DNA of 54,857 bases. Origin: a virus. The stretch covers positions 1 to 54,857 of IMG/VR virus record IMGVR_UViG_3300037635_001739, one strand, 5' to 3'. Of this stretch, positions 11,302 to 54,461 are shown piece by piece. The notes under the pieces are model-generated. The model was not told where the DNA came from, searched no databases, and saw only the letters and a list, made by a program, of their open reading frames with translations. The position numbers were made by a program, and so were the translations under genes. Position 1 is the first letter of the stretch. The number at the start of each line of letters is the position of its first letter.

Positions 11302-11319
11302 TTAATTTATTAGTGTGCT

Positions 11320-11349: not shown

Positions 11350-11371
11350 ATCAATTTTATAATATTATATC

Positions 11372-12232: not shown

Positions 12233-12241
12233 GTTACTTTT

Positions 12242-12282: not shown

Positions 12283-12300
12283 AATTTAAAAAATTAAAAA

Positions 12301-42373: not shown

Positions 42374-42393
42374 TATTATCATTTTGTATGCGT
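42374..42393 (-). promoter_or_regulatory. Promoter of the ACG-N10-KATAATA family
   Basis: Minus strand reads ACG, ten bases, GATAATA, with TTGCAG 20 bases before the GATAAT (plus 42400-42407). It sits between the 56-aa gene and the SSB transcription unit, 27 bases before the 53-aa gene start. Confidence 0.65.
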
Positions 42394-42437
42394 GTTTAAT
42401 CTGCAACTTATAATGTCCCAGAATATAAATAATAAAA

Positions 42438-42608
42438 TTACTCTCGGTAATCGTTGTAAACTTCAATCGTGTCACCATTAAAAACCACCTGATTAAATCT
42501 GAAAATAACTTTTTCTAATTCTTTTAAGGTTATTTCTTTTCCTTTCCATTCTTTTACTAATGCAGGTCGGATTTGATCGTTTGTAAAAATTATTTTATAT
42601 TTTTTCAT
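42438..42608 (-). CDS. Small protein, unknown
   Basis: 56 residues: MKKYKIIFTNDQIRPALVKEW, with KGKEITLKELEKVIFRFNQ and an end NGDTIEVYNDYRE. The start lies within a base or two of the upstream nuclease gene stop (42610), indicating coupling. Alternating helices and a short beta end are seen; no family recognised. Confidence 0.55.
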   Translation of the reverse strand: MKKYKIIFTNDQIRPALVKEWKGKEITLKELEKVIFRFNQVVFNGDTIEVYNDYRE

Positions 42609-42609
42609 A

Positions 42610-43359
42610 TTATAATGTTCCAGACTTTACGTAATCCTTTAAATCGAATAGTGGATCAGCTATTAAGGTTTCGTATGCGTCCATAGCCCAAGCTACTTTG
42701 GCCTCACCTCTTTCATAAAATTCATCAGAGCAATCATATATTCCTATTTGATGTGTCTTTTTACATATAACTAAGAACACCAAGTCATAACCAAATATTT
42801 CTTTATAAATGTATGCTTGACTGTCATAATTATATATATTTGCGCTCTTTTTAAATTTGTTAATATCACCAGTTGTTTTTATATCTATGATCAGGCCTTG
42901 ATCTTTGTTAATACAATCGGCTTTACCTTTCCACCAAGTACCATTAATTTCTTTGATACCAGGCTCTTCGTTAATTGTGTCACCTTTTAAAAGCGAAGTA
43001 CAAACATCGTTGTTCAAGATTTTACTTATCATCTCTTCACATTTGTCGACTTCTTTTTTAAGTAGTAACATTTCTTTACCTGATTCTTTTAGCGCTTCCT
43101 TATATAATTTAGTTGTTCTTGTCGTTGCATCAACATAAGGGTAATTAGCTTTTAGTTTTTCAGGTTCGAGTATTGCTGTGTGGAGATATCCACCGATAAG
43201 AAAATTAATATTCGTACCGGTCGATTTTCCAAATTGCTCAGGATCGTTTAGTAATTTATATATGTCACTATTAGATCTATATTGTCTTCCCACTCCATTA
43301 TAATACTCTTCATCATTGCGTAGTAATTCAACTACTTTTTTTTGTTCTGCTTTAGTCAT
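42610..43359 (-). CDS. RecE-like exonuclease (PD-(D/E)XK family)
   Basis: 249 residues. The N-terminal GGYLHTAILEP (H60) is the hallmark of phage RecE/YqaJ-type nucleases, with E131/E132 near NEEPG. The catalytic core is KGKADCINKDQGLIIDIKTT (D148, D159, K161), with the Q motif in YDSQAYIY. It resects DNA ends to give 3' single strands. It shares its transcript with the ERF annealing protein, whose stop overlaps its start, forming a two-component single-strand-annealing recombination system. Confidence 0.85.
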   Translation of the reverse strand: MTKAEQKKVVELLRNDEEYYNGVGRQYRSNSDIYKLLNDPEQFGKSTGTNINFLIGGYLHTAILEPEKLKANYPYVDATTRTTKLYKEALKESGKEMLLLKKEVDKCEEMISKILNNDVCTSLLKGDTINEEPGIKEINGTWWKGKADCINKDQGLIIDIKTTGDINKFKKSANIYNYDSQAYIYKEIFGYDLVFLVICKKTHQIGIYDCSDEFYERGEAKVAWAMDAYETLIADPLFDLKDYVKSGTL

Positions 43360-43931
43360 TAAAGTGTTTCAGTTGTAACTGGTTTTGCCGCTTCTAAGGC
43401 TTTCTTAATTGCAGCTGTCATATCATACTTACTGGCTATTGCGCTCACGTCACCTCCTGATTCTACAAATTTCAACGCCTTCTTATATAAAGCTGAGGTC
43501 TTACTTGTTATTTGCTCCTTTGCTTTCTTACCAGAGTGATCGTTGGAAGCGTCCGCATCTGCAGTGTCGTCGATTAGGAATAAATTACCTAAAGCGTATT
43601 TCTTTGCATAACTGGAGGCTGCTCCATATCTTTGTGGCATACTCATGCCTTTAATTAATAGGTCGACACCAACGATCGCTACAGCTTGTATAGAGACTTC
43701 CTCTTCTCCGTCCATAATTTTTGCAGTTGATTGCATGACCGGAGGATCAATACTAACCATCTCTTCAGATACAGTTACCGTTACATTGTGTTTAACGCAA
43801 AACGGTTTTACAGCCTCCAGTATATCTTCTGCTGCTCGGTAGTAATATTTACCGAAGCCATTGTATCTGGATTTTTTAGCTTTCATTTCTGCCTGAATTG
43901 TTGCTAATTTAGTTATTAAATTTGATTTCAT
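43359..43931 (-). CDS. ERF-family single-strand DNA annealing protein
   Basis: 190 residues. The start KLATIQAEMKAKKSRYNGFGK and the block YYYRAAEDILEAVKPFCVKH match ERF (essential recombination function) proteins. GVDLLIKGMSMPQRYGAASS and YAKKYALGNLFLIDDTADAD are the conserved second half, and the tail SGGDVSAIASKYDMTAAI is typical. It anneals complementary strands exposed by the adjacent nuclease and may promote genome concatemer formation or circularisation. The following gene overlaps its stop by 1 bp. Confidence 0.85.
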   Translation of the reverse strand: MKSNLITKLATIQAEMKAKKSRYNGFGKYYYRAAEDILEAVKPFCVKHNVTVTVSEEMVSIDPPVMQSTAKIMDGEEEVSIQAVAIVGVDLLIKGMSMPQRYGAASSYAKKYALGNLFLIDDTADADASNDHSGKKAKEQITSKTSALYKKALKFVESGGDVSAIASKYDMTAAIKKALEAAKPVTTETL

Positions 43932-44016
43932 TTATATAGGGTTTATTGGTTTATAATTTGTGAACTTTGGTACATTATAATTATTACACATTTTTACAAT
44001 TAATTAAGCGTGTAAC

Positions 44017-44769
44017 TTACAGATAATCAACCACTTGCGACGGTGAAACATTAGCTATTAATTTATCTATTGCTTCCTTTTTTATTTGCGAAATTCTTAC
44101 GTTAGCGGTATTAACTTGAATGCCTAAAAATTTAGCGATTTCGTTAGCTCGCATTTTATCGCAGTCAAGCCCGTAAAATAATCTTATTACCTGAAATTGT
44201 GTATCATCTAAATGGGATTTCATTATGCTCATTAAATAAGCGTTTAATATATTTAAGTTATATTTTGGATGGTTATCCTCTATCTGGTGGTATATATTTT
44301 CTCCATTAGAATCTACACCTGTTTCCAGCTTATTAAATATAGAATTAAAGAACATTGACACAATAGCCTCATCATTGGGATTTTTGCGTATTTCGTTTAT
44401 CTTATGCTCAGGGATTCTCATATCGCCTCTATTAATGTCTATAGCTCTTCGTATGGCTCCTTTGATTCTTTTGCTAAAGAAACTTTTTAATGTTTTTTCT
44501 ATATCCCCGGATTTATTAAGAGATTCCCAATCTAATTTATCAACTGCTTGTATTAACCCTGCGCTTCCTTCCTGAATAAGATCATTTATAGTCATTACAC
44601 CGGACGCTTGCTGTGATGTAGAAAATTTTCTAGCTAAATTCTCTACAAGATACATGAATTTAATTATAAGCTCATCTCTAGTGTACTCATCCCAAAATTT
44701 ACCTTCAGGCATAGATAGTTTTAAATCTTCTTTATATCTTACGTAATTTTGTACGTTGTATTTTTTCAT
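44017..44769 (-). CDS. Phage sigma-70-family RNA polymerase sigma factor
   Basis: 250 residues. Region 2 has FMYLVENLARKFSTSQ and LIQEGSAGLIQAVDKLDW (the TIxxLI/EGxxGLI hallmark), followed by a region 3 helix with AIRRAIDINRGDMRIP. C-terminal region 4 is HLDDTQFQVIRLFYGLDCDK with the HTH MRANEIAKFLGIQVNTANVR. It directs host RNA polymerase to phage promoters, probably late ones or those of the shared element family described here. It is located in the middle of the minus-strand region with small genes, and a 40-aa membrane peptide ends just before its start. Confidence 0.85.
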   Translation of the reverse strand: MKKYNVQNYVRYKEDLKLSMPEGKFWDEYTRDELIIKFMYLVENLARKFSTSQQASGVMTINDLIQEGSAGLIQAVDKLDWESLNKSGDIEKTLKSFFSKRIKGAIRRAIDINRGDMRIPEHKINEIRKNPNDEAIVSMFFNSIFNKLETGVDSNGENIYHQIEDNHPKYNLNILNAYLMSIMKSHLDDTQFQVIRLFYGLDCDKMRANEIAKFLGIQVNTANVRISQIKKEAIDKLIANVSPSQVVDYL

Positions 44770-44770
44770 G

Positions 44771-44893
44771 TTATTGTATTAATACGGATAGTAGCACCAT
44801 CCCTGTTAGCGTAAATAACATGATCCATTGCCATGCTATTATATTTTTTTCGGTAGGATTTTTTTTATCCCACCACTTTTTTATTTTCTTCAT
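44771..44893 (-). CDS. Small single-TM protein
   Basis: 40 residues: MKKIKKWWDKKNPTEKNII, then the hydrophobic WQWIMLFTLTGMVLLSVLI. The basic N-terminus and one membrane helix indicate an inner-membrane peptide. It ends 1 bp before the sigma gene start, so translation may be coupled. Role unknown; membrane reporter, anti-sigma tether or superinfection function are possible. Confidence 0.5.
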   Translation of the reverse strand: MKKIKKWWDKKNPTEKNIIAWQWIMLFTLTGMVLLSVLIQ

Positions 44894-44957
44894 CTGTTTC
44901 AGTTTTACATAAGCAATATCCTTTGTCCAGCGTGCAATCGCATAGCCTCCATTGCAT
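44865..44957 (-). CDS. Cys-rich 30-residue peptide
   Basis: Reads MQWRLCDCTLDKGYCLCKTE and then DEENKKVVG. Two CxC pairs nine residues apart suggest a tiny zinc-binding knuckle. It overlaps the next gene by 29 bp in another frame. The start could lie further upstream in frame. Evidence for translation is only the motif and compact arrangement. Confidence 0.35.
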   Translation of the reverse strand: MQWRLCDCTLDKGYCLCKTETDEENKKVVG

Positions 44958-44983
44958 ATTCTTATTTATTATATCTTCTTGCT

Positions 44984-45607
44984 TCAATTCAATTGTTTAT
45001 TAAGTAATTTATACTCTTTTTTAAGTTCATTAGTAATATTTCTGTATATGGTTCTAGTGGAACAATCAAGTATATTAGCCAATTTATTTATAGTTATCTT
45101 TTCTTTATTGTCATGCAGCAATAGCATAGTCTCATATATTTCTGAGTCAGTAACTTTTGATCTACCAATTAGTTTACCTACAATAGAAAGCTTTTCACTA
45201 GTAGTTAATCCTGTATTATCCTTAAAAATAATTTTACGTATTTTATTAGGAGGAGGAGTATCTAATTCCTTCATTGAAACATCATATATTATACTTTCCA
45301 TAATATGATCGGATATATTAAACGTTGTAAACCCATTAGATTTATTACATATAAATCTTGCAATGCGATTAAACTCTTCTGGATCCATATTTGGATTCAA
45401 GTACCATAACACATACAAATGCCATTTAAGACTTTTGTAAGTAGTTATTTTAGCTTTAGATCCGAAAAGTGTATAGCATTCGCGAGTACCCTCTTCATAA
45501 AACCAGCCCCAAGAATGTTCTTCAGTAGGTTTATCGTTTACTGGGTTGTTCCTATATATTATACGATGTTTCACTAGATATTTTATGTTTCTTTCTATAT
45601 GCGACAT
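44984..45607 (-). CDS. HTH-domain regulator or replication initiator
   Basis: 207 residues. The first 110 residues (ERNIKYLVKHRIIYRNNPVND...) are of unknown fold, with a Trp-rich HSWGWFYEEG. The C-terminal 60 residues contain NKEKITINKLANILDCSTRT and IYRNITNELKKEY, a clear helix-turn-helix with recognition helix CSTRTIYRNI. It could be an early transcription switch or a replication-organising protein. It follows a degenerate promoter-like stretch (45620-45650) and heads the cluster that leads into the sigma gene. Confidence 0.65.
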   Translation of the reverse strand: MSHIERNIKYLVKHRIIYRNNPVNDKPTEEHSWGWFYEEGTRECYTLFGSKAKITTYKSLKWHLYVLWYLNPNMDPEEFNRIARFICNKSNGFTTFNISDHIMESIIYDVSMKELDTPPPNKIRKIIFKDNTGLTTSEKLSIVGKLIGRSKVTDSEIYETMLLLHDNKEKITINKLANILDCSTRTIYRNITNELKKEYKLLNKQLN

Positions 45608-45631
45608 TAGCCTCTTACTATAATATATTAA

Positions 45632-45757
45632 CTATCTTTTGTCGCGTTTCGGTTTACTGTTTCTTTTAGAAACAAATGGCTTCCTGTATTTATTTATCTT
45701 AGTAGCTATATTTAAAAAGTCTACTGAAATCATGTGTTCATAAAGTTTTTTACTCAT
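45632..45757 (-). CDS. Small basic protein, unknown
   Basis: 41 residues: MSKKLYEHMISVDFLNIATK, then KYRKPFVSKRNSKPKRDKR. The start overlaps the stop of the 102-aa gene by 8 bp. The C-terminal half is almost all basic and may bind nucleic acid. No family recognised. Confidence 0.5.
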   Translation of the reverse strand: MSKKLYEHMISVDFLNIATKINKYRKPFVSKRNSKPKRDKR

Positions 45758-46058
45758 CTTGCTTATTTTTTAGTTGTCTTTCTATTTCAGTTATTTTTTC
45801 TTTAATCTGAGATGCTGCTATATAATTTTCATCATCTATAGCTTGCTGTAACTCATTCTCTAAGTATTTTTTAGATATAACAAGACCTTCTTGTGTAGGT
45901 CCTGGTTCTGTTATGTGTAGATCAACACCATCTTGATCTTCTACGACACCTCCAGCAGCAACCCACTTACCAATAAATTCCTCATCTAATTCTTTTTGTT
46001 TGTTTACAATTTTTTTTACTATTAGCTCAGCTAATTTTTCAATTTCTTGTTCAGTCAT
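45750..46058 (-). CDS. Small acidic protein with UVR-like helix
   Basis: 102 residues. The N-terminal helix is TEQEIEKLAELIVKKIVNKQ, the centre is acidic with DGVDLHITEPGPTQEGL, and the C-terminal helix LENELQQAIDDENYIAASQI-KEKITEIERQL has the pattern of the UVR (UvrB/UvrC) interaction motif. Similar helices occur in unrelated proteins, so a repair link is only a possibility. It overlaps the genes on both sides by 8 bp. Confidence 0.55.
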   Translation of the reverse strand: MTEQEIEKLAELIVKKIVNKQKELDEEFIGKWVAAGGVVEDQDGVDLHITEPGPTQEGLVISKKYLENELQQAIDDENYIAASQIKEKITEIERQLKNKQDE

Positions 46059-46398
46059 TTCTATTTTTGTTTAGTGATATTTTAACATTTCTCCACTTGC
46101 CTAAGACGATCTCATTATCTACAAGAAAGTCTATAGCAAATACAAATCTTTTATTCATTCGGTCTTCTACAGTCCAAATTCCATTCATCTCACCTGCATT
46201 CTCAACACAAACCTCAGCGCCAAAAGTAAAGCCAAAAGCTTCAAGATCCCGTGATACAGCCAGCCACCGGTGTTTACCTGGGTTATCAGCATCGATCTTT
46301 TTGTTTGACGCCGTGATTAGAGGTGTCGAGTCAGTTTGTGAGGGTACAGCGTTGTAAACCGTAGCGTGTACGAGTATGTATAGCAACAGCGTTTTCAT
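46051..46398 (-). CDS. Secreted 3D-domain (double-psi beta-barrel) protein
   Basis: 115 residues. The N-terminal hydrophobic MKTLLLYILVHA is likely a signal peptide. The rest matches the 3D/RlpA-like barrel: ATVYNAVPSQTDSTPLITAS (D23), HRWLAVSRDLEAFGFTFGAE (D51), then EDRMNKRF (D79) and AIDFLV (D90), the three-Asp pattern. Such domains occur in lytic transglycosylase-like cell-wall enzymes. Its place in an early/middle operon rather than with the lysis genes is odd, and suggests envelope remodelling during infection. Confidence 0.65.
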   Translation of the reverse strand: MKTLLLYILVHATVYNAVPSQTDSTPLITASNKKIDADNPGKHRWLAVSRDLEAFGFTFGAEVCVENAGEMNGIWTVEDRMNKRFVFAIDFLVDNEIVLGKWRNVKISLNKNRND

Positions 46399-46685
46399 CG
46401 ATCTAGTTGGTATATTAGATTATTAATTACTTCTCTTGAAACATATCCAGCAACCATATCGCCATGACAATTTATAAACTGAGGAGTAATGAACTCACCT
46501 TTAATATCCAGTAATGCGACTTCAAATGCAGTATATGAATACAGCTCTAGATCATTCTCACGAGGTATAGAGTATAAACCCTCACCCGCTTGAATGCTTA
46601 TGGTTACTTTACTTTTAGTTTTTAGCACGGATCCAATACCACCGTGCGTCTGTTTTCTGAATCTTAAATCATCAAATGTTATCAT
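46395..46685 (-). CDS. Small protein, unknown
   Basis: 96 residues: MITFDDLRFRKQTHGGIGSVL, then KVTISIQAGEGLYSIPREND, and an end GYVSREVINNLIYQLDR. A beta-rich first half and helical end are seen. It starts in the AAAACTATG context and overlaps the 3D-domain gene by 4 bp. No family recognised. Confidence 0.6.
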   Translation of the reverse strand: MITFDDLRFRKQTHGGIGSVLKTKSKVTISIQAGEGLYSIPRENDLELYSYTAFEVALLDIKGEFITPQFINCHGDMVAGYVSREVINNLIYQLDR

Positions 46686-46695
46686 AGTTTTAGTT

Positions 46696-47301
46696 TTAGT
46701 GGAATATTAATCCAATTTTATTATTAGTGTTATACCATTTAGTCGCTTTTAGATCATACTCACTGCTATCGATATAGCCAGCACTGTTGAGATCGTCAGC
46801 AGAGCTAAAAATTCGGGTGTGACGGTCGGTTTTTTCATTGATTAAATGTTTTTGTTTACCTGAGTCGCTGTATATAATGTCATAGTTATCAGGCAGTTGT
46901 ACTTCTTTAGTTAATTGTACCATATTGGTATAAGAATAAAACTTAACATCTGGATTATCTTTAGCAATTTGAATCCATTTGTTTAAGTATGCACGGCTGT
47001 AATAATCGCCACTATCATGTACTCTTACAAAGTCAGGTTTCTTACGTCTGATCTCATCATTCATGGTTGGTATGAATTCATCAGTTTTACTTAACTCATA
47101 TCGCTTTTCAAAAGCGGGTTGGACGTTGGACCAAATGTAAGCGCCTTTCTTAGCATAACAGAACTTAACACACTCATCAGCCATAGGACAAGTAAGCTTA
47201 CCTGATGCAGATTTGTACGCGGGAATACCGAAGTTCATTAGCTTAACACCGAAGTATTTACTAGTCTTTTTGATTTTAGAATTTTGTGTAAGTAAGTTCA
47301 T
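46696..47301 (-). CDS. GP88-family phage protein
   Basis: 201 residues. The start KTSKYFGVKLMNFGIPAYKS and the Cys block LTCPMADECVKFCYAKKGAY match the GP88 phage protein family, as do VRVHDSGDYYSRAYLNKWIQ and VKFYSYTNMVQLTK. Three closely spaced Cys plus conserved His/Asp suggest a metal centre or Fe-S-like site, but the activity is unknown to me. It is the first gene after the promoter at 47320-47339. Confidence 0.7.
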   Translation of the reverse strand: MNLLTQNSKIKKTSKYFGVKLMNFGIPAYKSASGKLTCPMADECVKFCYAKKGAYIWSNVQPAFEKRYELSKTDEFIPTMNDEIRRKKPDFVRVHDSGDYYSRAYLNKWIQIAKDNPDVKFYSYTNMVQLTKEVQLPDNYDIIYSDSGKQKHLINEKTDRHTRIFSSADDLNSAGYIDSSEYDLKATKWYNTNNKIGLIFH

Positions 47302-47319
47302 ATTGTTATTATTTAGTTA

Positions 47320-47339
47320 TATTATCTTTATAGTTACGT
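47320..47339 (-). promoter_or_regulatory. Promoter of the ACG-N10-KATAATA family
   Basis: Minus strand ACG, ten bases TAACTATAAA, GATAATA; GTTGCAG lies upstream (plus 47347-47353). Drives the GP88 gene, whose start is 19 bases away. Confidence 0.75.
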
Positions 47340-47352
47340 ATTCTATCTGCAA

Positions 47353-47418
47353 CTAGACATCATCCATCCAAAGCCATATAGCCAAGGAAATCATAGCTAA
47401 TACTATTCCTATTAACAT
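47353..47418 (-). CDS. 21-residue hydrophobic peptide
   Basis: Reads MLIGIVLAMISLAIWLWMDDV. It starts at TAATG overlapping the stop of the 85-aa gene, which supports translation by re-initiation. It is almost entirely hydrophobic and would insert in a membrane. Function unknown. Confidence 0.4.
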   Translation of the reverse strand: MLIGIVLAMISLAIWLWMDDV

Positions 47419-47675
47419 TAGTCTAGTAGTACCATGTAAGCTTCCGGATTTGTTTTGCGGAACCAACTACATGCTTTGTTAAATTGGTTAATAAGTTTGT
47501 TATCTCTGTTGGTGTACATTACTACTTCGCATCCTTTTATGAAATCATACATAGATAACTCTAGGTTATTTAATCTTATAGATTCTCCAGAAAACGGGTT
47601 TTCCACATCAGCGCCATGGGGATATAACTTACCCCCACCTTTAGTAAACCATTTAGGTAATTCTTGATCTTTCAT
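47418..47675 (-). CDS. Small phage protein, unknown
   Basis: 85 residues: QELPKWFTKGGGKLYPHGAD, IRLNNLELSMYDFIKGCEV, and an end NKACSWFRKTNPEAYMVLLD. The final block (KAxxWFxxxNPxAYxVLL) looks like a conserved family tail that I have seen in marine phages but cannot name. Coupled to the genes around it. Confidence 0.6.
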   Translation of the reverse strand: MKDQELPKWFTKGGGKLYPHGADVENPFSGESIRLNNLELSMYDFIKGCEVVMYTNRDNKLINQFNKACSWFRKTNPEAYMVLLD

Positions 47676-47676
47676 A

Positions 47677-47904
47677 TTATAGTTTTGTAAAATTAAAGTT
47701 TAAAGTTTTTATTATGGTATTTATAAAGTTACCGGCTGAGGGGGCAGCTCTTAGTCCTTCCCATACAAATTTGGGTACGTCGTAATAGTCATAAGCATAG
47801 CCGTTAGTAAACATTACAAATAATGTTTTAGTTCTGTGGTAGTACGTCGCATATTGGATCGCACTGGATTCGACAATAAAGTCTTCTTTTAGTATTGTAC
47901 TCAT
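47677..47904 (-). CDS. KTSC-domain protein
   Basis: 75 residues matching the KTSC domain: SSAIQYATYYHRTKTLFVMF, TNGYAYDYYDVPKFVWEGLR, APSAGNFINTIIK. The family is small, widespread in phages and bacteria, and of uncertain function, sometimes next to RNA or nucleotide enzymes. It spans the whole length of this protein. It is co-transcribed with the 160-aa gene before it. Confidence 0.8.
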   Translation of the reverse strand: MSTILKEDFIVESSAIQYATYYHRTKTLFVMFTNGYAYDYYDVPKFVWEGLRAAPSAGNFINTIIKTLNFNFTKL

Positions 47905-47907
47905 AGG

Positions 47908-48390: not shown

Positions 48391-48395
48391 ACAGT

Positions 48396-48415
48396 TATTA
48401 TCTTTAGAGTTACGT
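48396..48415 (-). promoter_or_regulatory. Promoter of the ACG-N10-KATAATA family
   Basis: Minus strand ACG, TAACTCTAAA, GATAATA, with TTGCAG at plus 48424-48429. It is nearly identical to the 47320 copy over 30 bases. It lies just before the 160-aa gene (start 48390) and after the stop of the 192-aa gene. Confidence 0.75.
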
Positions 48416-48429
48416 ATTTAGTCTGCAAC

Positions 48430-49008
48430 TTAAACAGTTGGTTTTGGTAATGGATTATCAGGATCGATATTTAATTGCTCTTTAGTAAGAGTTATTTGAT
48501 CCAGTAACTCATTGTATTTACCATCATCATTGTGGCGCATTATAGCTTCCTGACACATATCTAACATACGTACTACTTTAATTGGCCAGGCATAACCGGC
48601 TTCAATCAAATTATTTTCAACTTCGGCGTATACATCGTCGTATACTGTTTCACACATATCTTCGATAGCCTCGTTGATCGTAGCTTCTTCGTCGCAGTAT
48701 ATAGACAGACCGTTGCGTATAGCATCTTGTACTTCGCTAACAATATAGGTATTGTGTTCGGAGTAATAAACATCCTCAGCAATGTTTATACTATTAGGAT
48801 TGTGTGTACATATCCATACAGAATAGCCATCACGTGTAGATTCTTCATACACATATAGATCTTGATCAGTCCAGTGGTCGTCAACACGTGCACCGTAATG
48901 ATCTAGCACAAGTTGTTTGAAGTCACCATCTTGTTCGCTTATTTGTTTTTCGCTAAAGCCTAACTCGTGTAGCTTAGCTTCCATTAATTCAGGGGTAATT
49001 AGTTTCAT
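48430..49008 (-). CDS. Acidic protein, unknown
   Basis: 192 residues, strongly acidic (many D/E): MEAKLHELGFSEKQISEQD, YGARVDDHWTDQDLYVYEES, and VYAEVENNLIEAGYAWPIKV. Helical overall. It ends DNPLPKPTV. The acidic, partly DNA-mimic-like composition suggests a host-takeover role, but this is only composition. It is the sole gene between promoters at 49034 and 48396. Confidence 0.6.
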   Translation of the reverse strand: MKLITPELMEAKLHELGFSEKQISEQDGDFKQLVLDHYGARVDDHWTDQDLYVYEESTRDGYSVWICTHNPNSINIAEDVYYSEHNTYIVSEVQDAIRNGLSIYCDEEATINEAIEDMCETVYDDVYAEVENNLIEAGYAWPIKVVRMLDMCQEAIMRHNDDGKYNELLDQITLTKEQLNIDPDNPLPKPTV

Positions 49009-49033
49009 ATTTATTATATTTAAAGGTTTATTA

Positions 49034-49053
49034 TATTATCTTTTGGTTGTCGT
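49034..49053 (-). promoter_or_regulatory. Promoter of the ACG-N10-KATAATA family
   Basis: Minus strand ACG, ACAACCAAAA, GATAATA, with TTTGCAGA at plus 49061-49067. It directs the 192-aa gene. A switchable hairpin element (49079-49137) precedes it. Confidence 0.75.
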
Positions 49054-49078
49054 GTTCTGTCTGCAAAGAATGACTTAT

Positions 49079-49137
49079 CATACCTTATCGGGTATAATAC
49101 GGGTTAATGTATCATATATTATACCCTATTGGGTATG
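49079..49137 (-). promoter_or_regulatory. Alternating hairpins at an operon end
   Basis: ATACC (49080-49084) pairs with GGTAT (49091-49095), and ATACCC (49121-49126) with GGGTAT (49131-49136), giving two local hairpins. Alternatively GGGTATAAT (49090-49098) pairs with ATTATACCC (49118-49126), and CATACC with GGTATG closes the whole. The two arrangements exclude each other. The element covers the stop of the 107-aa gene and precedes a promoter, so it may be a terminator or a switch. Confidence 0.5.
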
Positions 49138-49449
49138 AGCATTATCTTGCAGTATATCGATAGCGCGATCAAAGCCTACGCCCGTGTAACCAGACCTACC
49201 TGGTAACATTGATAAATTAGTGTTATTAAAATTATCAAGTGCATCAAGTATGTACTCGTATATTTCTTTTTCTTTTTGTTCGCTATCAAGTATTAATCGC
49301 TGTTCTTCTTCAGTTATACCGCCATATATTCTATTTTTTAACGCTTTTTTAGCATCTTCAATAGAGAACATAATGTTTACCAGTTTGGCTTCGATCTTGT
49401 CGGTGGCCAAAGTGTGTATAGCAGGGTAGAAATTATTTTCTTCATTCAT
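49126..49449 (-). CDS. Small helical protein, unknown
   Basis: 107 residues: NNFYPAIHTLATDKIEAKLV, then a helical Glu/Lys-rich centre (IYGGITEEEQRLILDSEQKE) and an end SGYTGVGFDRAIDILQDNAH. The codons for AIHT include one GTGTATAGCA/TGCTATACAC 10-mer. No family recognised. A 26-aa peptide is encoded just upstream. Confidence 0.6.
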   Translation of the reverse strand: MNEENNFYPAIHTLATDKIEAKLVNIMFSIEDAKKALKNRIYGGITEEEQRLILDSEQKEKEIYEYILDALDNFNNTNLSMLPGRSGYTGVGFDRAIDILQDNAHTQ

Positions 49450-49453
49450 AGGT

Positions 49454-49534
49454 TTATTTGTTATTATTTTGGTTAATAATTTGTAAAATTTGGTTGAAGT
49501 AGCGATCTGCTAATTCGTCAGTTTCGTAATTCAT
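49454..49534 (-). CDS. 26-residue peptide
   Basis: Reads MNYETDELADRYFNQILQII and then NQNNNK. The stop is 5 bp before the next gene start, which supports a coupled short leader or small protein. It may be a leader peptide since its 3' part overlaps a leader-like A-rich sequence. Function unknown. Confidence 0.4.
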   Translation of the reverse strand: MNYETDELADRYFNQILQIINQNNNK

Positions 49535-49660
49535 AATATTATTTATTTAGTTGTTAAAAATTTTATATATTAAGTATATACTACTTATATATGATATTGT
49601 TATCGTTAGTATTATTATTGTATCCATAGTTATTTATTTAATTGGTTTTAATAATATTTT

Positions 49661-49720
49661 CAATACACCCGCGTTATCATGGGTTATCGCCCGTAGCCTA
49701 AAAGGTTAACGAGTGTATTG
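49661..49720 (-). ncRNA. 60-nt closed two-hairpin structured element
   Basis: CAATACAC (49661-49668) pairs perfectly with GTGTATTG (49713-49720). CGTTA (49672-49676) pairs with TAACG (49707-49711). Inside lie hairpins GGG-TTATCG-CCC (49681-49692) and CCT-AAA-AGG (49697-49705). This is a compact three-way-junction shape. The outer 8-bp stem and the complete closure make chance unlikely. The strand is assumed from the neighbouring genes; the fold is equally possible on the plus strand. Confidence 0.55.
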
Positions 49721-49725
49721 ATTAG

Positions 49726-49835
49726 TGGATAGCGGGGGAATCGAACCCCCATACTTTTTAGTAGTAAGTGCTTCAGGTCTCTGGCTTTGAACAGTATTCA
49801 AAGGTGCTTGTACCAATAGCGCTCCATACCTATCC
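49726..49835 (-). tRNA. tRNA-like element, non-canonical
   Basis: On the minus strand a 6-bp acceptor stem (GGATAG...CTATCC) and a perfect T-arm GGGGG-TTCGATT-CCCCC (plus 49734-49750) are standard. A D-loop-like ATTGGTA follows the acceptor. The expected anticodon arm is a TTTGA/TCAAA stem with a 7-base loop ATACTGT (U33 in place), whose anticodon would be ACU. But about 35 bases then separate it from the T-arm, and position 7-66 is a G/G mismatch. It is a degenerate, intron-bearing or novel tRNA-like RNA; no CCA is encoded. Confidence 0.45.
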
Positions 49836-49836
49836 G

Positions 49837-49893
49837 ATCGTAGACATTTGCTAGCAGCTTAAAGAAAGCGCTCGGTTATTTATTCGCTACGAT
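49837..49893 (-). ncRNA. Hairpin element beside the tRNA-like RNA
   Basis: ATCGTAG (49837-49843) pairs with CTACGAT (49887-49893) and encloses the palindrome TGCTAGCA (49849-49856) and a GCTT/AAGC hairpin (49857-49869). Its 5' end on the minus strand leads directly into the tRNA-like element, one base apart. It may form part of one longer transcript. Confidence 0.4.
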
Positions 49894-50011
49894 AATGTGT
49901 GGCTGGTTTCTTCTTAAGACATTTAATAAACACTAATCCCAGTGTATCACCACTTAATATTTTATGTACTACACGGCAATGTACATTGATCACATTTTCG
50001 CCGAACCACAA
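49880..50011 (-). CDS. Possible short protein without ATG
   Basis: A 43-residue frame with TTG as first usable start: MWFGENVINVHCRVVHKILS, then GDTLGLVFIKCLKKKPATHY and ends RSE. The composition is protein-like, but there is no ATG and no good start context, and its end overlaps the hairpin element at 49837-49893. It may be a remnant or chance. Confidence 0.2.
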   Translation of the reverse strand: MWFGENVINVHCRVVHKILSGDTLGLVFIKCLKKKPATHYRSE

Positions 50012-50055
50012 AGGGCTGTGAACTAACTAATAAATAATAAACTATAGGGTTATTT

Positions 50056-50082
50056 GCGTATAGCATACGCCGCCGCCCGGGC
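50056..50082. other. GC-rich hairpin plus GCCCGGGC palindrome
   Basis: GCGTAT (50056-50061) and ATACGC (50065-50070) form a perfect stem with loop AGC, and the palindrome GCCCGGGC follows at 50075-50082. The stem contains the recurrent GTATAGCA. It is an unusually GC-rich spot in AT-rich DNA, just below the 63-aa gene stop. It could be a terminator-like or protein-binding structure. Confidence 0.5.
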
Positions 50083-50098
50083 ACAGTCAGTTAAAAAT

Positions 50099-50290
50099 TT
50101 ATTTAATTTCTTCATATTCATTTATTGATTCGGTTAATGTATTCATTCGTCTTCTTAAGTACTTAAGATCTATCTCGCTAATAATGTTATCAGGGTTAGC
50201 TAATATGTCTTTGGTTATGTAGTCTAATAAAAACTTACCGCGATAAACAGATTGTAGTAATGTAGTGTATTCTTTAGTTGTAATTTGCAT
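50099..50290 (-). CDS. Small helical early protein, unknown
   Basis: 63 residues: MQITTKEYTTLLQSVYRGKF, then DILANPDNIISEIDLKYLRR and NTLTESINEYEEIK. All-helical with a heptad-like second half. It starts in an AACTATG context and ends just before the structured region. Function unknown. Confidence 0.55.
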   Translation of the reverse strand: MQITTKEYTTLLQSVYRGKFLLDYITKDILANPDNIISEIDLKYLRRRMNTLTESINEYEEIK

Positions 50291-50315
50291 AGTTATATTA
50301 TTTTAAATTCATATA

Positions 50316-50335
50316 TATTATCTTATGTAGTACGT
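50316..50335 (-). promoter_or_regulatory. Promoter of the ACG-N10-KATAATA family
   Basis: Minus strand ACG, TACTACATAA, GATAATA, with GTTGCA at plus 50341-50346. It directs the 63-aa gene at 50290, which leads toward the structured RNA region. Confidence 0.7.
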
Positions 50336-50350
50336 ATTCAAATTGCAACG

Positions 50351-50542
50351 CTATAGATCTTTCTTGCGTATCCAGGTTAAACCTTTGTAATTGAACCACT
50401 TAGTTATACCGTCTCGATCTTCAGCGTCGTCGTATATATAGGCAAACTTGTTTGGTAGGTTAGCTAGATCGAAGCCAACGTGAATATCACCGTTTAATTT
50501 TAACTCTTTTTTAGTGCGTGAGAATTTTATAGTATTTTCCAT
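50351..50542 (-). CDS. Small early protein, unknown
   Basis: 63 residues: MENTIKFSRTKKELKLNGDI, HVGFDLANLPNKFAYIYDD and KWFNYKGLTWIRKKDL. A beta-rich small domain is suggested. It starts in the AAACTATG context, 4 bp after the upstream stop. Function unknown. Confidence 0.6.
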   Translation of the reverse strand: MENTIKFSRTKKELKLNGDIHVGFDLANLPNKFAYIYDDAEDRDGITKWFNYKGLTWIRKKDL

Positions 50543-50545
50543 AGT

Positions 50546-50884
50546 TTATTTTAGTTCTTCGTTAATAATGTCTTTGAATTTATTAGATACTCTGAGTTCA
50601 ATTAATTTTTCGGCTTCGGTACATACATCCTTTTGAAGTTTATGAAGTTTATCTTCACCATATAGTTTAGTATATAGATCGCGGAATCCCTCGGATTTAA
50701 CGGGTTCACCGTTTAATAGCCAATCAATTTCACAATCCATAGCGTCAGTTTTAAAACCACCATCTTTTGTTGGATATACGTAAGTATATACAGTTATATT
50801 TGCGGATATTAGAGAATCGACGTGTATAGCAACGTTAGCGTTAACGTTAAAACTTATATAGTCATTTAAGTGTACTGCTTTCAT
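50546..50884 (-). CDS. Early protein, unknown
   Basis: 112 residues: MKAVHLNDYISFNVNANVAI, YVYPTKDGGFKTDAMDCEID and helices to NKFKDIINEELK. A beta N-terminal half and a helical C-terminal half. One GTGTATAGCA copy (50822-50831) lies within the codons for AIHV. AAACTATG start. Function unknown. Confidence 0.6.
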   Translation of the reverse strand: MKAVHLNDYISFNVNANVAIHVDSLISANITVYTYVYPTKDGGFKTDAMDCEIDWLLNGEPVKSEGFRDLYTKLYGEDKLHKLQKDVCTEAEKLIELRVSNKFKDIINEELK

Positions 50885-50887
50885 AGT

Positions 50888-51094
50888 TTATTTATTTAAA
50901 GTGTTTATAATATTTTTTATAGTTTTATTAGTAATTAATTCTAGCATGTCATAGTAGTCGTCGCCATCAAGGTCGATGCCTGCATATTCCAGTTGATGAC
51001 TTATAGTATAAACCATATAATCTATGGTTACTTCAGCGATTTGTTGCGCTAAAATACCTGCGTTGTTGGATAATTGCTCGTTAGTTGTAGTCAT
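50888..51094 (-). CDS. Small acidic early protein, unknown
   Basis: 68 residues: MTTTNEQLSNNAGILAQQIA, VTIDYMVYTISHQLEYAGID, then LDGDDYYDMLELITNKTIKN. A helical, acidic peptide of the size common in phage early regions, where such proteins often inhibit or redirect host processes. Function unknown. Confidence 0.55.
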   Translation of the reverse strand: MTTTNEQLSNNAGILAQQIAEVTIDYMVYTISHQLEYAGIDLDGDDYYDMLELITNKTIKNIINTLNK

Positions 51095-51197
51095 TATATT
51101 CGTTCATTACATTAGAAATTTGTTCTTTAGTTAGTGACCAATAGCTGATACCTGGGTATAGTCGGTCGGCGATTTGAAACATTTGTGTTGCGCTCAT
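51081..51197 (-). CDS. 38-residue early protein, unknown
   Basis: Reads MSATQMFQIADRLYPGISYW, then SLTKEQISNVMNEYNDYN. The AAAACTATG start and a 14-bp overlap with the next gene argue for translation. One amphipathic helix is likely. Function unknown. Confidence 0.5.
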   Translation of the reverse strand: MSATQMFQIADRLYPGISYWSLTKEQISNVMNEYNDYN

Positions 51198-51218
51198 AGT
51201 TTTATTAGTTTTATAGGT

Positions 51219-51410
51219 TTATAATTCTTCAGTTAAGTGATCAAGGGCTAATTGGTAGCCATAGTTTTTTGCCATTTGCATTAGTAAAAAGTCGTTTGTA
51301 CCGTTATTTGCTTTAGCGAAGGCTTCTAGGTAATTTTCGGTTGGCGTGGCAACAATACCACGATCTAACATTTGTTGTTTGGTTGATATAAAGTCTTGTA
51401 TAATTTTCAT
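51219..51410 (-). CDS. Small early protein, unknown
   Basis: 63 residues: MKIIQDFISTKQQMLDRGIV, then FAKANNGTNDFLLMQMAKNY, ending HLTEEL. Helical with a conserved-looking NDFLLMQMAKNYGYQLAL. A similar pattern (TQALNYDYELALAVEYL) is seen in the 34-aa peptide at 54688, so the two may be related. AAAACTATG start. Confidence 0.55.
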   Translation of the reverse strand: MKIIQDFISTKQQMLDRGIVATPTENYLEAFAKANNGTNDFLLMQMAKNYGYQLALDHLTEEL

Positions 51411-51649
51411 AGTTTTATTGAGGTTTTAGGGTTAAAAAATTGCATTTTAGGTCGTATTTCATCTAGTATAACACCACATGGATCAGTTAATTGATGGTAG
51501 CACTGATCAAAACAGTCGCTTAAGTATTTAACTTGCTCAGGTGTGAATGGTGGATCAATTTGAGTGAGATCATCTTCAGGGTGAACAAAGGGGTAAAGGT
51601 GTTGCATTGTAGTTAAAAACTGAATGGCTTGGTTTTTTGTAGTAATCAT
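51407..51649 (-). CDS. Small early protein, unknown
   Basis: 80 residues: MITTKNQAIQFLTTMQHLYP, DPPFTPEQVKYLSDCFDQCY and ILDEIRPKMQFFNPKTSIKL. Helical first two thirds. Its stop overlaps the next start by 4 bp. AAACTATG start. Function unknown. Confidence 0.55.
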   Translation of the reverse strand: MITTKNQAIQFLTTMQHLYPFVHPEDDLTQIDPPFTPEQVKYLSDCFDQCYHQLTDPCGVILDEIRPKMQFFNPKTSIKL

Positions 51650-51683
51650 AGTTTATAGTATTTATTATTATTAATTTCAGTAT

Positions 51684-51703
51684 TATTATATATTATATGT
51701 CGT
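51684..51703 (-). promoter_or_regulatory. Promoter of the ACG-N10-KATAATA family
   Basis: Minus strand AAAAACG, ACATATAATA, TATAATA. It directs the 80-aa and following genes and lies 2 bp after the stop of the 99-aa gene. Confidence 0.7.
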
Positions 51704-51705
51704 TT

Positions 51706-52005
51706 TTAATATTTCGCTCTAATTTGGTCAGCACTACAATATGCCCACATTACTTTGTTTATGAAGGACACACGGTCAACCGATTTTTGCTCGATCGGAA
51801 AGGTGTATAGCATGGTTTCATAAAATTCCATTAGTCCGGGGTCATTATCGGCATAGTTGTGTTTGAATACATCGTATTCGTCACCTTGCATGAAACTCAT
51901 ACCGAGTATTTTATAGTCTTCGTTGTATTCTAGGTATATCCACCGATCATTCTTTTCACACCAAATGTGTTCTACTTTAGTTACTTTATTATTCTTCATA
52001 TTCAT
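51706..52005 (-). CDS. Early protein, unknown
   Basis: 99 residues: NKVTKVEHIWCEKNDRWIYL, KILGMSFMQGDEYDVFKHNY and FYETMLYTFPIEQKSVDRVS. The stretch MLYT is encoded by one GTGTATAGCA copy on the opposite strand. A small alpha/beta protein of unknown role. AAACTATG start. Confidence 0.6.
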   Translation of the reverse strand: MNMKNNKVTKVEHIWCEKNDRWIYLEYNEDYKILGMSFMQGDEYDVFKHNYADNDPGLMEFYETMLYTFPIEQKSVDRVSFINKVMWAYCSADQIRAKY

Positions 52006-52008
52006 AGT

Positions 52009-52170
52009 TTAATTATTTTTTATTTTAGTTCTTGCAGTATTCACCGCTTCCATTCTTAACTTGTAAGTGTCTTCGGTTATACAACCGTCTAGTTCGATAG
52101 CTTCAAGGTGTTCTTCCATGTGATCGAGTGCTACCAAGATCACATTTTGTTCATAGTTACTCAGTTTCAT
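52009..52170 (-). CDS. 53-residue helical early protein, unknown
   Basis: Reads MKLSNYEQNVILVALDHMEE, then HLEAIELDGCITEDTYKLRM. Helical and acidic in the middle, basic at the end (ARTKIKNN). It is 3 bp from the neighbours on either side, indicating an operon. ACTATG start. Function unknown. Confidence 0.55.
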   Translation of the reverse strand: MKLSNYEQNVILVALDHMEEHLEAIELDGCITEDTYKLRMEAVNTARTKIKNN

Positions 52171-52173
52171 AGT

Positions 52174-52452
52174 CTACTTATTTTGACAGTTTTTAAGGTC
52201 GAAGTTGTATAGCATACGTAGTCGATCTAGTCCGTTAGGTACTAATGTTCTAGTGTAATAGTAGTTATCACGGTTTTTATTATAGTGTTTAACTTTAGTG
52301 TTAATTTGGTAGAGTTTTACACCACGTCTTCTGAAGTGTGGTTGATCTTTGCAACTCACTCTAACGTAACCGGACTTGTAGGTGTAACCTAATCGACCGT
52401 CACTCATTTCACATTTAATTGTACCGTTTTTACTGATGTTTAATACTTTCAT
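52174..52452 (-). CDS. Basic early protein, unknown
   Basis: 92 residues: MKVLNISKNGTIKCEMSDGR, YTYKSGYVRVSCKDQPHFRR and NKNRDNYYYTRTLVPNGLDR. Beta-rich and basic with two Cys, and a Tyr-rich region. One TGTATAGCA copy lies in its last third, under MLYNFDL. First gene after the promoter at 52485. AAACTATG start. Confidence 0.6.
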   Translation of the reverse strand: MKVLNISKNGTIKCEMSDGRLGYTYKSGYVRVSCKDQPHFRRRGVKLYQINTKVKHYNKNRDNYYYTRTLVPNGLDRLRMLYNFDLKNCQNK

Positions 52453-52484
52453 AGTTTATTATATTTAATTATTATTATTTACTT

Positions 52485-52504
52485 TATTATATATTTATTA
52501 TCGT
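52485..52504 (-). promoter_or_regulatory. Promoter of the ACG-N10-KATAATA family
   Basis: Minus strand AAAAACG, ATAATAAATA, TATAATA. It starts 6 bp after the stop of the 51-aa gene and directs the 92-aa, 53-aa and 99-aa genes. Confidence 0.7.
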
Positions 52505-52509
52505 TTTTA

Positions 52510-52665
52510 TTATATTATATTTAACTCCATTAATATGGATTCTTCTATATCTTCTTCAAGAAACATGTCACTATCATATTCTAGTTTCATAGTTTCTATT
52601 AATTCTTCTATCTCCCGTAATCTACCGGGATATTGTAGTTCGATTTGACTTTGTATTCTATTCAT
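52510..52665 (-). CDS. 51-residue acidic early protein
   Basis: Reads MNRIQSQIELQYPGRLREIE, then ELIETMKLEYDSDMFLEEDI and ends SILMELNII. Strongly acidic and helical. It overlaps the upstream gene by 8 bp. Such small acidic proteins are common phage inhibitors of host enzymes; the role here is unknown. Confidence 0.5.
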   Translation of the reverse strand: MNRIQSQIELQYPGRLREIEELIETMKLEYDSDMFLEEDIEESILMELNII

Positions 52666-52834
52666 ATACTGTTTCTATTAGGTCATTTACTAAGTCTTCT
52701 TCAGTTTCCCCGTCTTCCGGTATACAGTCAAGTTCTACAAATTCTTTAATTCTTTGTTCGATCTTTTCTCTACCTTCATAGAAAGATTCGAATTTAAAGT
52801 GTTGCACCGTTTCTTCATTCCAATTGTACTTCAT
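52658..52834 (-). CDS. 58-residue acidic early protein
   Basis: Reads MKYNWNEETVQHFKFESFYE, then GREKIEQRIKEFVELDCIPE and LVNDLIETVYE. Acidic and helical. ATAACTATG start; overlaps the 51-aa gene by 8 bp. Function unknown. Confidence 0.5.
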   Translation of the reverse strand: MKYNWNEETVQHFKFESFYEGREKIEQRIKEFVELDCIPEDGETEEDLVNDLIETVYE

Positions 52835-52848
52835 AGTTATAGTTTTAA

Positions 52849-52989
52849 TTAATTAATAAATTCTTGTTCTTTAGCGTATTCTAGAGTATTTATAGCGATT
52901 TCTATATCGTCAGAGATCGGTTGACAACCCAATTCTTCGGTTGCATTCATACACATAGTTAATAAAGTTTTAATTTCAGAGTAATTCAT
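52849..52989 (-). CDS. 46-residue early protein
   Basis: Reads MNYSEIKTLLTMCMNATEEL, then GCQPISDDIEIAINTLEYAK, ending EQEFIN. Helical, three Cys or Met-rich positions, acidic. First gene after the promoter at 53025. ATAACTATG start. Function unknown. Confidence 0.5.
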   Translation of the reverse strand: MNYSEIKTLLTMCMNATEELGCQPISDDIEIAINTLEYAKEQEFIN

Positions 52990-53024
52990 AGTTATTATAT
53001 TTATAGTTATTAATTATTTAAATT

Positions 53025-53044
53025 TATTATATATTTATAGTCGT
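53025..53044 (-). promoter_or_regulatory. Promoter of the ACG-N10-KATAATA family
   Basis: Minus strand AAAAACG, ACTATAAATA, TATAATA. It heads the 46-aa to 51-aa gene group. A 270-bp gene-free stretch lies upstream. Confidence 0.75.
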
Positions 53045-53316
53045 TTTTGTTATTTTACTTTGTGACAAGGCATTTGTAGTCACTTGTAAACACTTATATT
53101 CTCTTATTACCTAAAATAATTCTTTAAATACTGTAGTTTTACCCAAAAGTACGTAATTATAATAGTATTTATAAAAAACTCTAGTTATTAGTGTAACTTT
53201 ATTAGTATAGTTAAATTATAGTACACTACTAATAGAGAGTGTCTTCACTCTACTATCTTAAGTTTTAAACAACTATACTTTAGTTTATTACTTAAATTAC
53301 TCTAATGGGAACCGTT
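53045..53316. other. AT-rich intergenic region
   Basis: About 270 bp with no plausible gene on either strand. It contains a perfect AGAGTG-TCTT-CACTCT hairpin at 53236-53251, flanking tacactactaat and gtgtaactttattag sequences, and a CTAGAGTTTTTTAT run on the minus strand. The hairpin may terminate the 71-aa transcript. An origin-like role is possible from AT content but not shown. Confidence 0.4.
53236..53251. terminator. AGAGTG-TCTT-CACTCT hairpin
   Basis: A perfect 6-bp stem with a stable tetra-loop lies 65 bp after the 71-aa gene stop on the minus strand. There is no T-run next to it, so it is termed terminator-like only by position. Confidence 0.35.
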
Positions 53317-53532
53317 TTAACAACAATTACATCGATCCCACTCTTTACCGTTTCTACATGTTTCACCTAAGACTTCTAAATCTAAGAATTCACGGTGATA
53401 AAACTCTATTAACTCTGTTGTAGTGAACTTCTTCCTCCACTGGGTTGTCTGTTCGATCCAGTGATAGTCACCGCATTTCTCTACATTTCCGTCATTCATC
53501 CATTCTAACATTTCTTTAGTTACTTCATACAT
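53317..53532 (-). CDS. Early protein with C-terminal Cys cluster
   Basis: 71 residues: MYEVTKEMLEWMNDGNVEKC, GDYHWIEQTTQWRKKFTTTE and a C-terminal ETCRNGKEWDRCNCC. The four Cys near the end, plus C20, could bind zinc. AACTATG start after promoter 53574. Function unknown. Confidence 0.55.
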   Translation of the reverse strand: MYEVTKEMLEWMNDGNVEKCGDYHWIEQTTQWRKKFTTTELIEFYHREFLDLEVLGETCRNGKEWDRCNCC

Positions 53533-53573
53533 AGTTATATTATTTAATTATTAGTATTTATTAATTTCAATAT

Positions 53574-53593
53574 TATTATATATATTCTATCGT
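53574..53593 (-). promoter_or_regulatory. Promoter of the ACG-N10-KATAATA family, with 10-mer
   Basis: Minus strand AAAAACG, ATAGAATATA, TATAATA. Directly upstream is TGTGTATAGCA, giving a 20-base match (TGTGTATAGCAAAAACGATA) with the copy at 54409-54425. Directs the 71-aa gene. Confidence 0.75.
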
Positions 53594-53596
53594 TTT

Positions 53597-53606
53597 TGCT
53601 ATACAC
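53597..53606 (+). repeat. TGCTATACAC 10-mer
   Basis: One of the perfect copies in non-coding DNA; part of the promoter at 53574. See the over-representation finding. Confidence 0.7.
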
Positions 53607-53674
53607 ACGTACTCTGTTTTGCGGTGGAATCTCGATCTTTTTAGCTAAAATACGGTGATTTTGACTAAAGAACA

Positions 53675-53734
53675 TAGGTATGCTATACACGCGGTGTAGA
53701 TTACCGCATGTTACAGTCCGTTTTGGACTACCTA
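53675..53734 (-). ncRNA. Two-hairpin structured element
   Basis: Outer TAGGT (53675-53679) and ACCTA (53730-53734) close hairpins GCGGT-GTAGATT-ACCGC (53691-53707) and AGTCC-GTTTT-GGACT (53715-53729). A TGCTATACAC copy lies at 53681-53690 in the junction. It follows the stop of the 43-aa gene and precedes the promoter at 53574. The outer stem is short, so the closed form is less certain than the two hairpins. Confidence 0.45.
53681..53690 (+). repeat. TGCTATACAC 10-mer
   Basis: Perfect copy inside the two-hairpin element at 53675-53734, not in any gene. Confidence 0.65.
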
Positions 53735-53863
53735 GCCAATAATTAATTTATGGTGGTAGTCTCTGGCATACTCAATCATGCCCTCATCTGTAATATTACC
53801 CAGTAAATACTGGTTTAAGTTGTCAATCATAGCAATAGTTTCAATTTTGATCTGGTTATCCAT
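53732..53863 (-). CDS. 43-residue early protein
   Basis: Reads MDNQIKIETIAMIDNLNQYL, then LGNITDEGMIEYARDYHHKL and ends IIG. Helical. The stop overlaps the two-hairpin element. GTATAGCA lies just upstream of its start (53866-53873). Function unknown. Confidence 0.5.
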   Translation of the reverse strand: MDNQIKIETIAMIDNLNQYLLGNITDEGMIEYARDYHHKLIIG

Positions 53864-53913
53864 AGGTATAGCATTTTAAGTTATTAATTATTAATTATTA
53901 GTTGGGCAAAAGC

Positions 53914-54231
53914 CTACTTTTCAGTAGACTTCTGTTCAACAATCTCAGCTAGATGTCTAACTGTGCTCGGTAGGTTAGTACTCTGCGACCAGTATTTGCG
54001 CTTAATCCAGCAGGCTTGCAGTTGTAGCTTAGGGAGCATAGCATTTAGTATTGTATCATGATTATAAGTAACTTTTTGATTTTTATTATTTATAAAAGTT
54101 ATTATTTGATTTCTACCGAGCCAACTTTCTCTCACTACAAAGTTTTTTCTTACAAGTGGCGGCCAGATTGCTGCTTTTTCTTTGTTTGACATTGTTTTTA
54201 GTGCTTTTTGCATAATTTCATTTGTGTTCAT
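53914..54231 (-). CDS. Early protein, unknown
   Basis: 105 residues: MNTNEIMQKALKTMSNKEKA, IWPPLVRKNFVVRESWLGR and a basic centre HDTILNAMLPKLQLQACWIK, ending EIVEQKSTEK. It may be DNA-binding by charge. First gene after the promoters at 54279 and 54392. Function unknown. Confidence 0.6.
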   Translation of the reverse strand: MNTNEIMQKALKTMSNKEKAAIWPPLVRKNFVVRESWLGRNQIITFINNKNQKVTYNHDTILNAMLPKLQLQACWIKRKYWSQSTNLPSTVRHLAEIVEQKSTEK

Positions 54232-54278
54232 AATTTTTAGTTTTTAGTTTATTATTATTATTTAGTTATTTATATATA

Positions 54279-54298
54279 TATTATATTATATATATCGT
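54279..54298 (-). promoter_or_regulatory. Promoter of the ACG-N10-KATAATA family
   Basis: Minus strand AAAACG, ATATATATAA, TATAATA. It directs the 105-aa and 43-aa genes. Confidence 0.65.
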
Positions 54299-54391
54299 TT
54301 TAGTTATTTTATATAAATTAATTAAATTTATTATTTTATTTTTTATAATTATTTTAATTATATTAATTATATTTATTATTAACTACATTTA
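54299..54391. other. Extremely AT-rich spacer between two promoters
   Basis: About 93 bp, nearly all A and T (taattaattaaatttattatt...), between promoters 54279 and 54392 and next to TGCTATAC repeats and the structured element at 54464. It could be an unwinding region for replication or part of strong early promoters. No gene. Confidence 0.4.
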
Positions 54392-54411
54392 TATTATATT
54401 TATAGTATCGT
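54392..54411 (-). promoter_or_regulatory. Promoter of the ACG-N10-KATAATA family, with 10-mer
   Basis: Minus strand AAAAACG, ATACTATAAA, TATAATA, with TGTGTATAGCA directly upstream. Together with 54279 it forms a double promoter for the 105-aa gene. Confidence 0.75.
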
Positions 54412-54414
54412 TTT

Positions 54415-54461
54415 TGCTATACACAATGCTATACGCATTTGCCCACAAAAATGCTATACAC
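54415..54461 (+). repeat. Cluster of three TGCTATAC(A/G)C copies
   Basis: Copies at 54415-54424, 54427-54436 (with one G) and 54452-54461, all in the same direction and in non-coding DNA between a promoter and the structured element at 54464. Iteron-like spacing of 12 and 25 bases. Confidence 0.7.

Follow-up and report, generated by a model that had tools for sequence, protein, structure and literature searches.

Eleven short elements on the minus strand of the window, the whole 54,857-base stretch of viral DNA analysed here, look like real promoters that recur across some eighty related marine phages, where they keep to the early-gene strand, and by every sequence test available they form a promoter family. 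The joint explanation that we favour, and regard as fairly probable, is that one class of these elements (M) would serve as early promoters read by a phage sigma factor with the host core RNA polymerase, the host promoter code being largely displaced, and that a second class (E) would be derived. Promoter activity, the match between the sigma factor and class M, and timing are the parts of this explanation that we infer.

Genome layout and host

The plus-strand genes of the window (60 to 35,236) are structural (terminase, portal and capsid), and the minus strand, from 35,387 to the right end, carries the replication and early genes, among them that of the sigma factor. Relatives of the terminase and portal were found in podophages of Flavobacterium, Cellulophaga, Tenacibaculum and Maribacter, and a Shine-Dalgarno-like word occurs at only one of 51 start codons, as expected for a Bacteroidota host (PMC6847099). 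The hosts of this marine podophage lineage are most likely Flavobacteriia. A search for the host via genome assemblies yielded five small contigs, which belong to unrelated MAGs and are probably contaminants.

Hairpin-like inverted repeats follow the capsid gene (11302-11371) and the next gene (12233-12300), e.g. TTACCCTCGTT...ACGGGGGTAA; their position and form are kept in relatives, and they are likely to be terminators or attenuators. A virion protein of 2633 aa (26349-34250), perhaps injected, carries a zinc-protease-like HELLH and a phosphatase-like WDFDDTLAK stretch and gave no informative family match. A 2280-aa protein (15233-22075) has a weak match to the crAss muzzle and a C-terminal run of DUF285 repeats with a 75-nt period.

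Two classes of predicted promoters in the window

The pattern ACG-N10-KATAATA gave 11 exact matches in the window, all on the minus strand and exactly where a preliminary description of this DNA had placed them, compared with 0.43 expected by chance and a maximum of three in any of 100 dinucleotide shuffles. The same description located the copies just before genes; indeed, none of the 11 overlaps a called gene, and the gap to the start codon is 5-47 nt for nine sites. Its division into two subclasses was confirmed from the window sequences, class M (five sites, 42.4-50.3 kb) having the form TTGCAR-N7-ACG-N10-GATAATA and class E (six sites, 51.7-54.4 kb) the form (A)AAACG-N10-TATAATA. The wording of each subclass needed some correction: TTGCAG, ascribed to all five copies at 42-50 kb, is exact in four and reads TTGCAA at 50316, and AAAAACG, ascribed with TATAATA to the copies at 51-54 kb, is exact in five of six and reads TAAAACG at 54279. 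The predicted promoters are listed below with scores from the class M weight matrix and with the class of the orthologous site in two relatives, G051 (IMGVR_UViG_3300047157_000138, the closest) and G063.

42374-42406, minus strand: predicted class M promoter, TTGCAG-N7-ACG-N10-GATAATA; score 26.6; class E in G051
47320-47352, minus strand: predicted class M promoter before a 201-aa gene; score 25.4; also M in G051
48396-48428, minus strand: predicted class M promoter, 5 nt before a 160-aa gene; score 24.2
49034-49066, minus strand: predicted class M promoter before a 192-aa gene; score 36.0; also M in G051
50316-50348, minus strand: predicted class M promoter, TTGCAA form; score 26.9; M in G051 and G063
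51684-51707, minus strand: predicted class E promoter, AAAAACG-N10-TATAATA; class M in G051
52485-52508, minus strand: predicted class E promoter before a 92-aa gene; class M in G063
53025-53048, minus strand: predicted class E promoter about 35 nt before a 46-aa ORF (52849-52989); exact pattern match
53574-53597, minus strand: predicted class E promoter before a 71-aa gene; exact pattern match
54279-54301, minus strand: predicted class E promoter, proximal of a tandem pair before a 105-aa gene; class M in G063
54392-54415, minus strand: predicted class E promoter, distal (upstream) of the same pair; weak score of 8.9; class M in G063

When the matrix was built without the window, the five M sites still scored 23-35, and only one E site, 54392, exceeded 8 (8.8). 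A short repeat, (T)GTATAGCA, lies upstream of early sites at 54459, 54434, 54422, 53688 and 53604 (minus strand) and directly abuts class E twice; in relatives it is commoner on the late strand (158 vs 358).

The element in related phages

Eighty contigs were fetched by similarity to the sigma factor, with no use of the motif. The fetched pieces contained 358 exact matches to the M pattern on the sigma strand and none on the opposite strand, and 42 of 50 whole records contained matches, all but one of the 42 having every copy on one strand. The unit ACG-N10-KATAATA of the preliminary description proved real and incomplete, as the unit conserved in relatives spans about 41 nt, with the weight-matrix consensus TTTACAAAcwaAAtACGA-N9-GATAATATAWWTR; the TTGCAG of the window is a variant of TTACAA at -38 to -33. 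Equal abundance inside genes or on the plus strand had been named at the outset as the outcome that would speak against promoters. The relatives gave a decisively different picture: across 81 sigma-bearing contigs the matrix found 471 sites on the early (sigma-gene) strand vs 0-2 on the other, and a matrix trained on half the contigs found 233 vs 0 in the held-out half.

The median gap from an M site to the start codon is 25 nt in the relatives. Six bases past GATAATA, at the distance expected of a transcription start, the matrix sites have only a purine at +1, preceded by T at -1 (63%), and the G at -12 is invariant. One subclade has lost the CG of ACG and kept the remainder of the element, so that ACG is part of the element and not indispensable to it.

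A phage sigma factor as candidate reader of class M

44017-44769, minus strand: sigma-70 family factor of 250 aa with regions 2 and 4, candidate reader of class M (profile matches, alignment and fold model)

The preliminary description had proposed this protein as a candidate reader of one subclass, and it has emerged as the best candidate for class M, given that sigma-less relatives use the host-type element TAHHTTTG and that an invariant Arg aligns with Thr440 of sigma70. Its Pfam scores lie just under the cut-off, and PDB profile matches reach 1e-8; the latter include the FliA structure 1rp3, and several primary SigA chains score better. The fold model is of moderate confidence overall (pLDDT 77); its matches to primary sigma factors combine a high probability with a low whole-chain TM-score, which is expected if the sigma domains are placed differently. 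In the region 2.4 alignment to sigma70, KR 99-100 correspond to Trp433-434, Gly103 to Gln437 and Arg106 to Thr440, and both Gly103 and Arg106 are invariant among 37 sequences. Residues 437 and 440 of sigma70 contact base -12. The invariant Arg106 opposite the invariant G-12 of class M would thus fit a sigma factor reading these sites, which is suggestive and no proof.

The genomic association points the same way with certain limits. The element and the sigma gene co-occur within one phage lineage only, so their association is not independent evidence. Arrays detected by the motif only either carry the sigma gene or run off the contig end downstream; in the four sigma-less arrays checked, the contig ends 568-1531 bases past the last site, and the listed positions of the others are also near a contig end. 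Covariation between sigma residues and motif letters, for which primase and Erf were also run, was inseparable from shared ancestry, and a neighbouring helix-turn-helix (HTH) protein scored as high. Taken together, the phage sigma factor appears to be the best-supported reader of class M.

Host promoter code versus phage code

The primary-sigma promoter consensus of Bacteroidota, the presumed host phylum of the window phage, is TTTG / TAHHTTTG (PMC6847099). Gene-upstream DNA of the sigma-less relatives (12.9 kb) contains 47 copies of TAHHTTTG vs a mean of 5.4 for 40 scrambled controls, nine times the control, whereas 61.3 kb from 30 sigma-bearing genomes contains 7 vs 15.1. Host-type promoters were ruled out as the basis of the array, since TAHHTTTG stands in register in only four of 471 M sites; classes M and E alike are without the host element, in keeping with the original remark that the motif is unlike the -33/-7 promoter of Bacteroidota. 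Conversely, the exact M pattern is absent from the sigma-less phages MW202828 and elemoA, and the GATAAT count is low in the four others. The phage sigma factor thus seems to have replaced the host promoter code in the sigma-bearing lineage. In all six sigma-less relatives (MW202828, elemoA, Panino, phi38:1, phi18:3 and Gundel_1) TAHHTTTG stands out by counting alone, so that these counts provide a ready promoter map.

These data bear directly on an alternative, which we judge unlikely, that M and E are ordinary early promoters for the host housekeeping holoenzyme and that the phage sigma factor, itself one of their products, acts on other (late) promoters. Such an arrangement would agree with the M sites beginning at the early/late divide and preceding the first early genes and the sigma gene, with the lack of a virion RNA polymerase motif, and with the use of host promoters for the first genes of phiEco32 and 7-11 (PMC4331800). 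However, the host element T-12 A-11 T-8 T-7 T-6 G-5 is rare at M sites, as counted above, their invariant G occupies -12, and it is the sigma-less relatives, not the sigma-bearing ones, that use the host element.

Other candidate readers

44984-45607, minus strand: helix-turn-helix protein of 207 aa next to the sigma gene, candidate regulator, rejected as a general reader of class M

That the HTH protein reads class M, or is an obligatory co-activator binding the ACG block, is improbable. It is conserved and adjoins the sigma factor, and the covariation of its columns with motif letters is as strong as that of sigma columns; however, it is missing from G051, G053 and G054, all of which carry arrays, and it has its own inverted-repeat site elsewhere, excluding it as a general reader. 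Its fold model is confident (pLDDT 90), and the fold search gave no significant match. The site in question is a 40-42-nt inverted repeat, GACaaTAGCC-N20-GGCTAaTGTC (as a candidate HTH-protein site, GACAATAGCC-N20-GGCTAATGTC), with 100 copies in 59 of 87 contigs and none for four scrambled controls. Some 35-36 copies overlap or abut the start codon of the HTH protein and others lie at the early/late divide, e.g. in L088 (oriented positions 37244 and 45037); the window has a degenerate copy at about 45600-45645, and three long records without the HTH protein lack the repeat. Repeat and protein probably constitute an autoregulated switch.

A virion-borne RNA polymerase reading the elements is more improbable still. 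Such a polymerase is present in some crAss-like phages, to which the related Cellulophaga podophages are close, but the 2633-aa virion protein has neither a D-x-D-x-D motif nor a polymerase match, and the -35/-10 layout points to a sigma factor. The 2280-aa protein contains one chance DPDAD, and the window misses several kb. Finally, copies within one genome share letters, as spreading cassettes would, but the short fixed distance to start codons, the initiator signature and the strict strand bias over whole genomes make it very improbable indeed that the elements are spreading repeats, or sites bound during replication or packaging, instead of promoters.

Class E and switching between E and M

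A class E array was seen only in the window and in G051, which has six E and four M sites and whose primase/helicase and Erf match those of the window at 96% and 92%; none occurred in the 80 sigma-fetched relatives. A scan of IMG/VR for AAAAACG-N10-TATAATA in other phages gave one copy per contig among the matches listed, which reads as chance. The many frameshifts in conserved genes of G051 (terminase, portal and sigma) suggest sequencing errors in that record.

Orthologous sites differ in class between close relatives. The site at 51684 is E in the window and M in G051, and the reverse holds at 42374; the site preceding the 92-aa gene and both members of the pair upstream of the 105-aa gene are E in the window and G051 but M in G063 (terminase 95%, portal 97% relative to the window). 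At such sites a change of base -12 between G and T goes with a change of the -35 block, which E has in a form shorter by 8-9 bp, suggesting that E and M are two functional units and not the drift of one. The TATAATA of class E is closer to a primary-sigma -10 than the GATAATA of M, yet also without TTTG. The earlier suggestion that the subclasses act at different times is unsupported as stated, given that in most relatives M serves the whole early region, from the first genes at the early/late divide onwards, and that orthologous sites of close relatives can belong to different classes.

Comparison with known systems and proposed mechanism

Promoters of sigma-28 (FliA) have the form TAAAGTTT-N11-GCCGATAA and share a GATAA core in the -10 with class M, but the -35 of M differs; the M matrix has TTTACAAA and NGATAATA in place of TAAAGTTT and GCCGATAA. 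Like the MotA-dependent middle promoters of T4, M has a phage-specific block between -35 and -10, but it also keeps a -35-like block. The nearest parallel is with phiEco32 and 7-11 (tAATGTAtA), podophages whose functional-gene cluster contains both a distant sigma-70 family factor and repeated phage-specific promoters, and whose structural and functional blocks are opposed (PMC4331800). In those phages host promoters give the first genes and the initial sigma factor, and the phage sigma factor serves middle and late genes (PMC4331800). The lineage of the window differs from them in its -10 sequence, in the use of M for the whole early block by most relatives, and in the absence of host-type promoters. 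The window elements are therefore likely to be phage sigma promoters as in phiEco32 and 7-11, unusual in serving the whole early block and in the displaced host code.

On the explanation that we favour, host core RNA polymerase with the phage sigma factor would read class M, region 4 contacting TTGCAR/TTACAAA at about -38 to -32 and region 2.4, through the invariant Arg106, contacting the -10 GATAATA with its G at -12. The AAYACG block at -28 to -23 would provide an extra spacer contact, and transcription would start at the purine six bases beyond GATAATA. The sigma factor would largely have replaced the TAHHTTTG code in this lineage, and class E would have arisen in the window and its closest relative through loss of 8-9 bp from the -35 region and gain of TATAATA. 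Class E would probably be read with a different or relaxed specificity able to act earlier, which is the weakest step.

The start of infection deserves separate consideration. The sigma gene usually lacks a dedicated promoter and is located downstream of M promoters, and in M-only genomes both the first early genes and the sigma gene stand behind M promoters, with no obvious pre-sigma start except in L110 and L113. In these two, a host-type TATATTTG or TATCTTTG stands some 17 nt upstream of the sigma gene, a possible host-read start. Transcription in M-only genomes may begin by weak host reading of M, with sigma carried in the virion, or from a host-type start near the sigma gene. It is conceivable, if rather doubtful, that the phage sigma factor took over all early transcription, including that of its own gene (through virion entry or leaky host reading), with promoters switching as whole units to the E specificity.

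The literature yielded no map of promoters for this phage group. The present analysis offers a promoter code that is precise and testable, together with its likely reader, for an uncultured lineage that has many relatives in metagenomes, and the sigma-less relatives with host-type promoters provide a natural contrast to the sigma-bearing lineage. Switching between E and M shows close relatives diverging in promoter specificity by the change of whole units, and how a phage may start transcription with a promoter code that its host does not use becomes a directly testable question.
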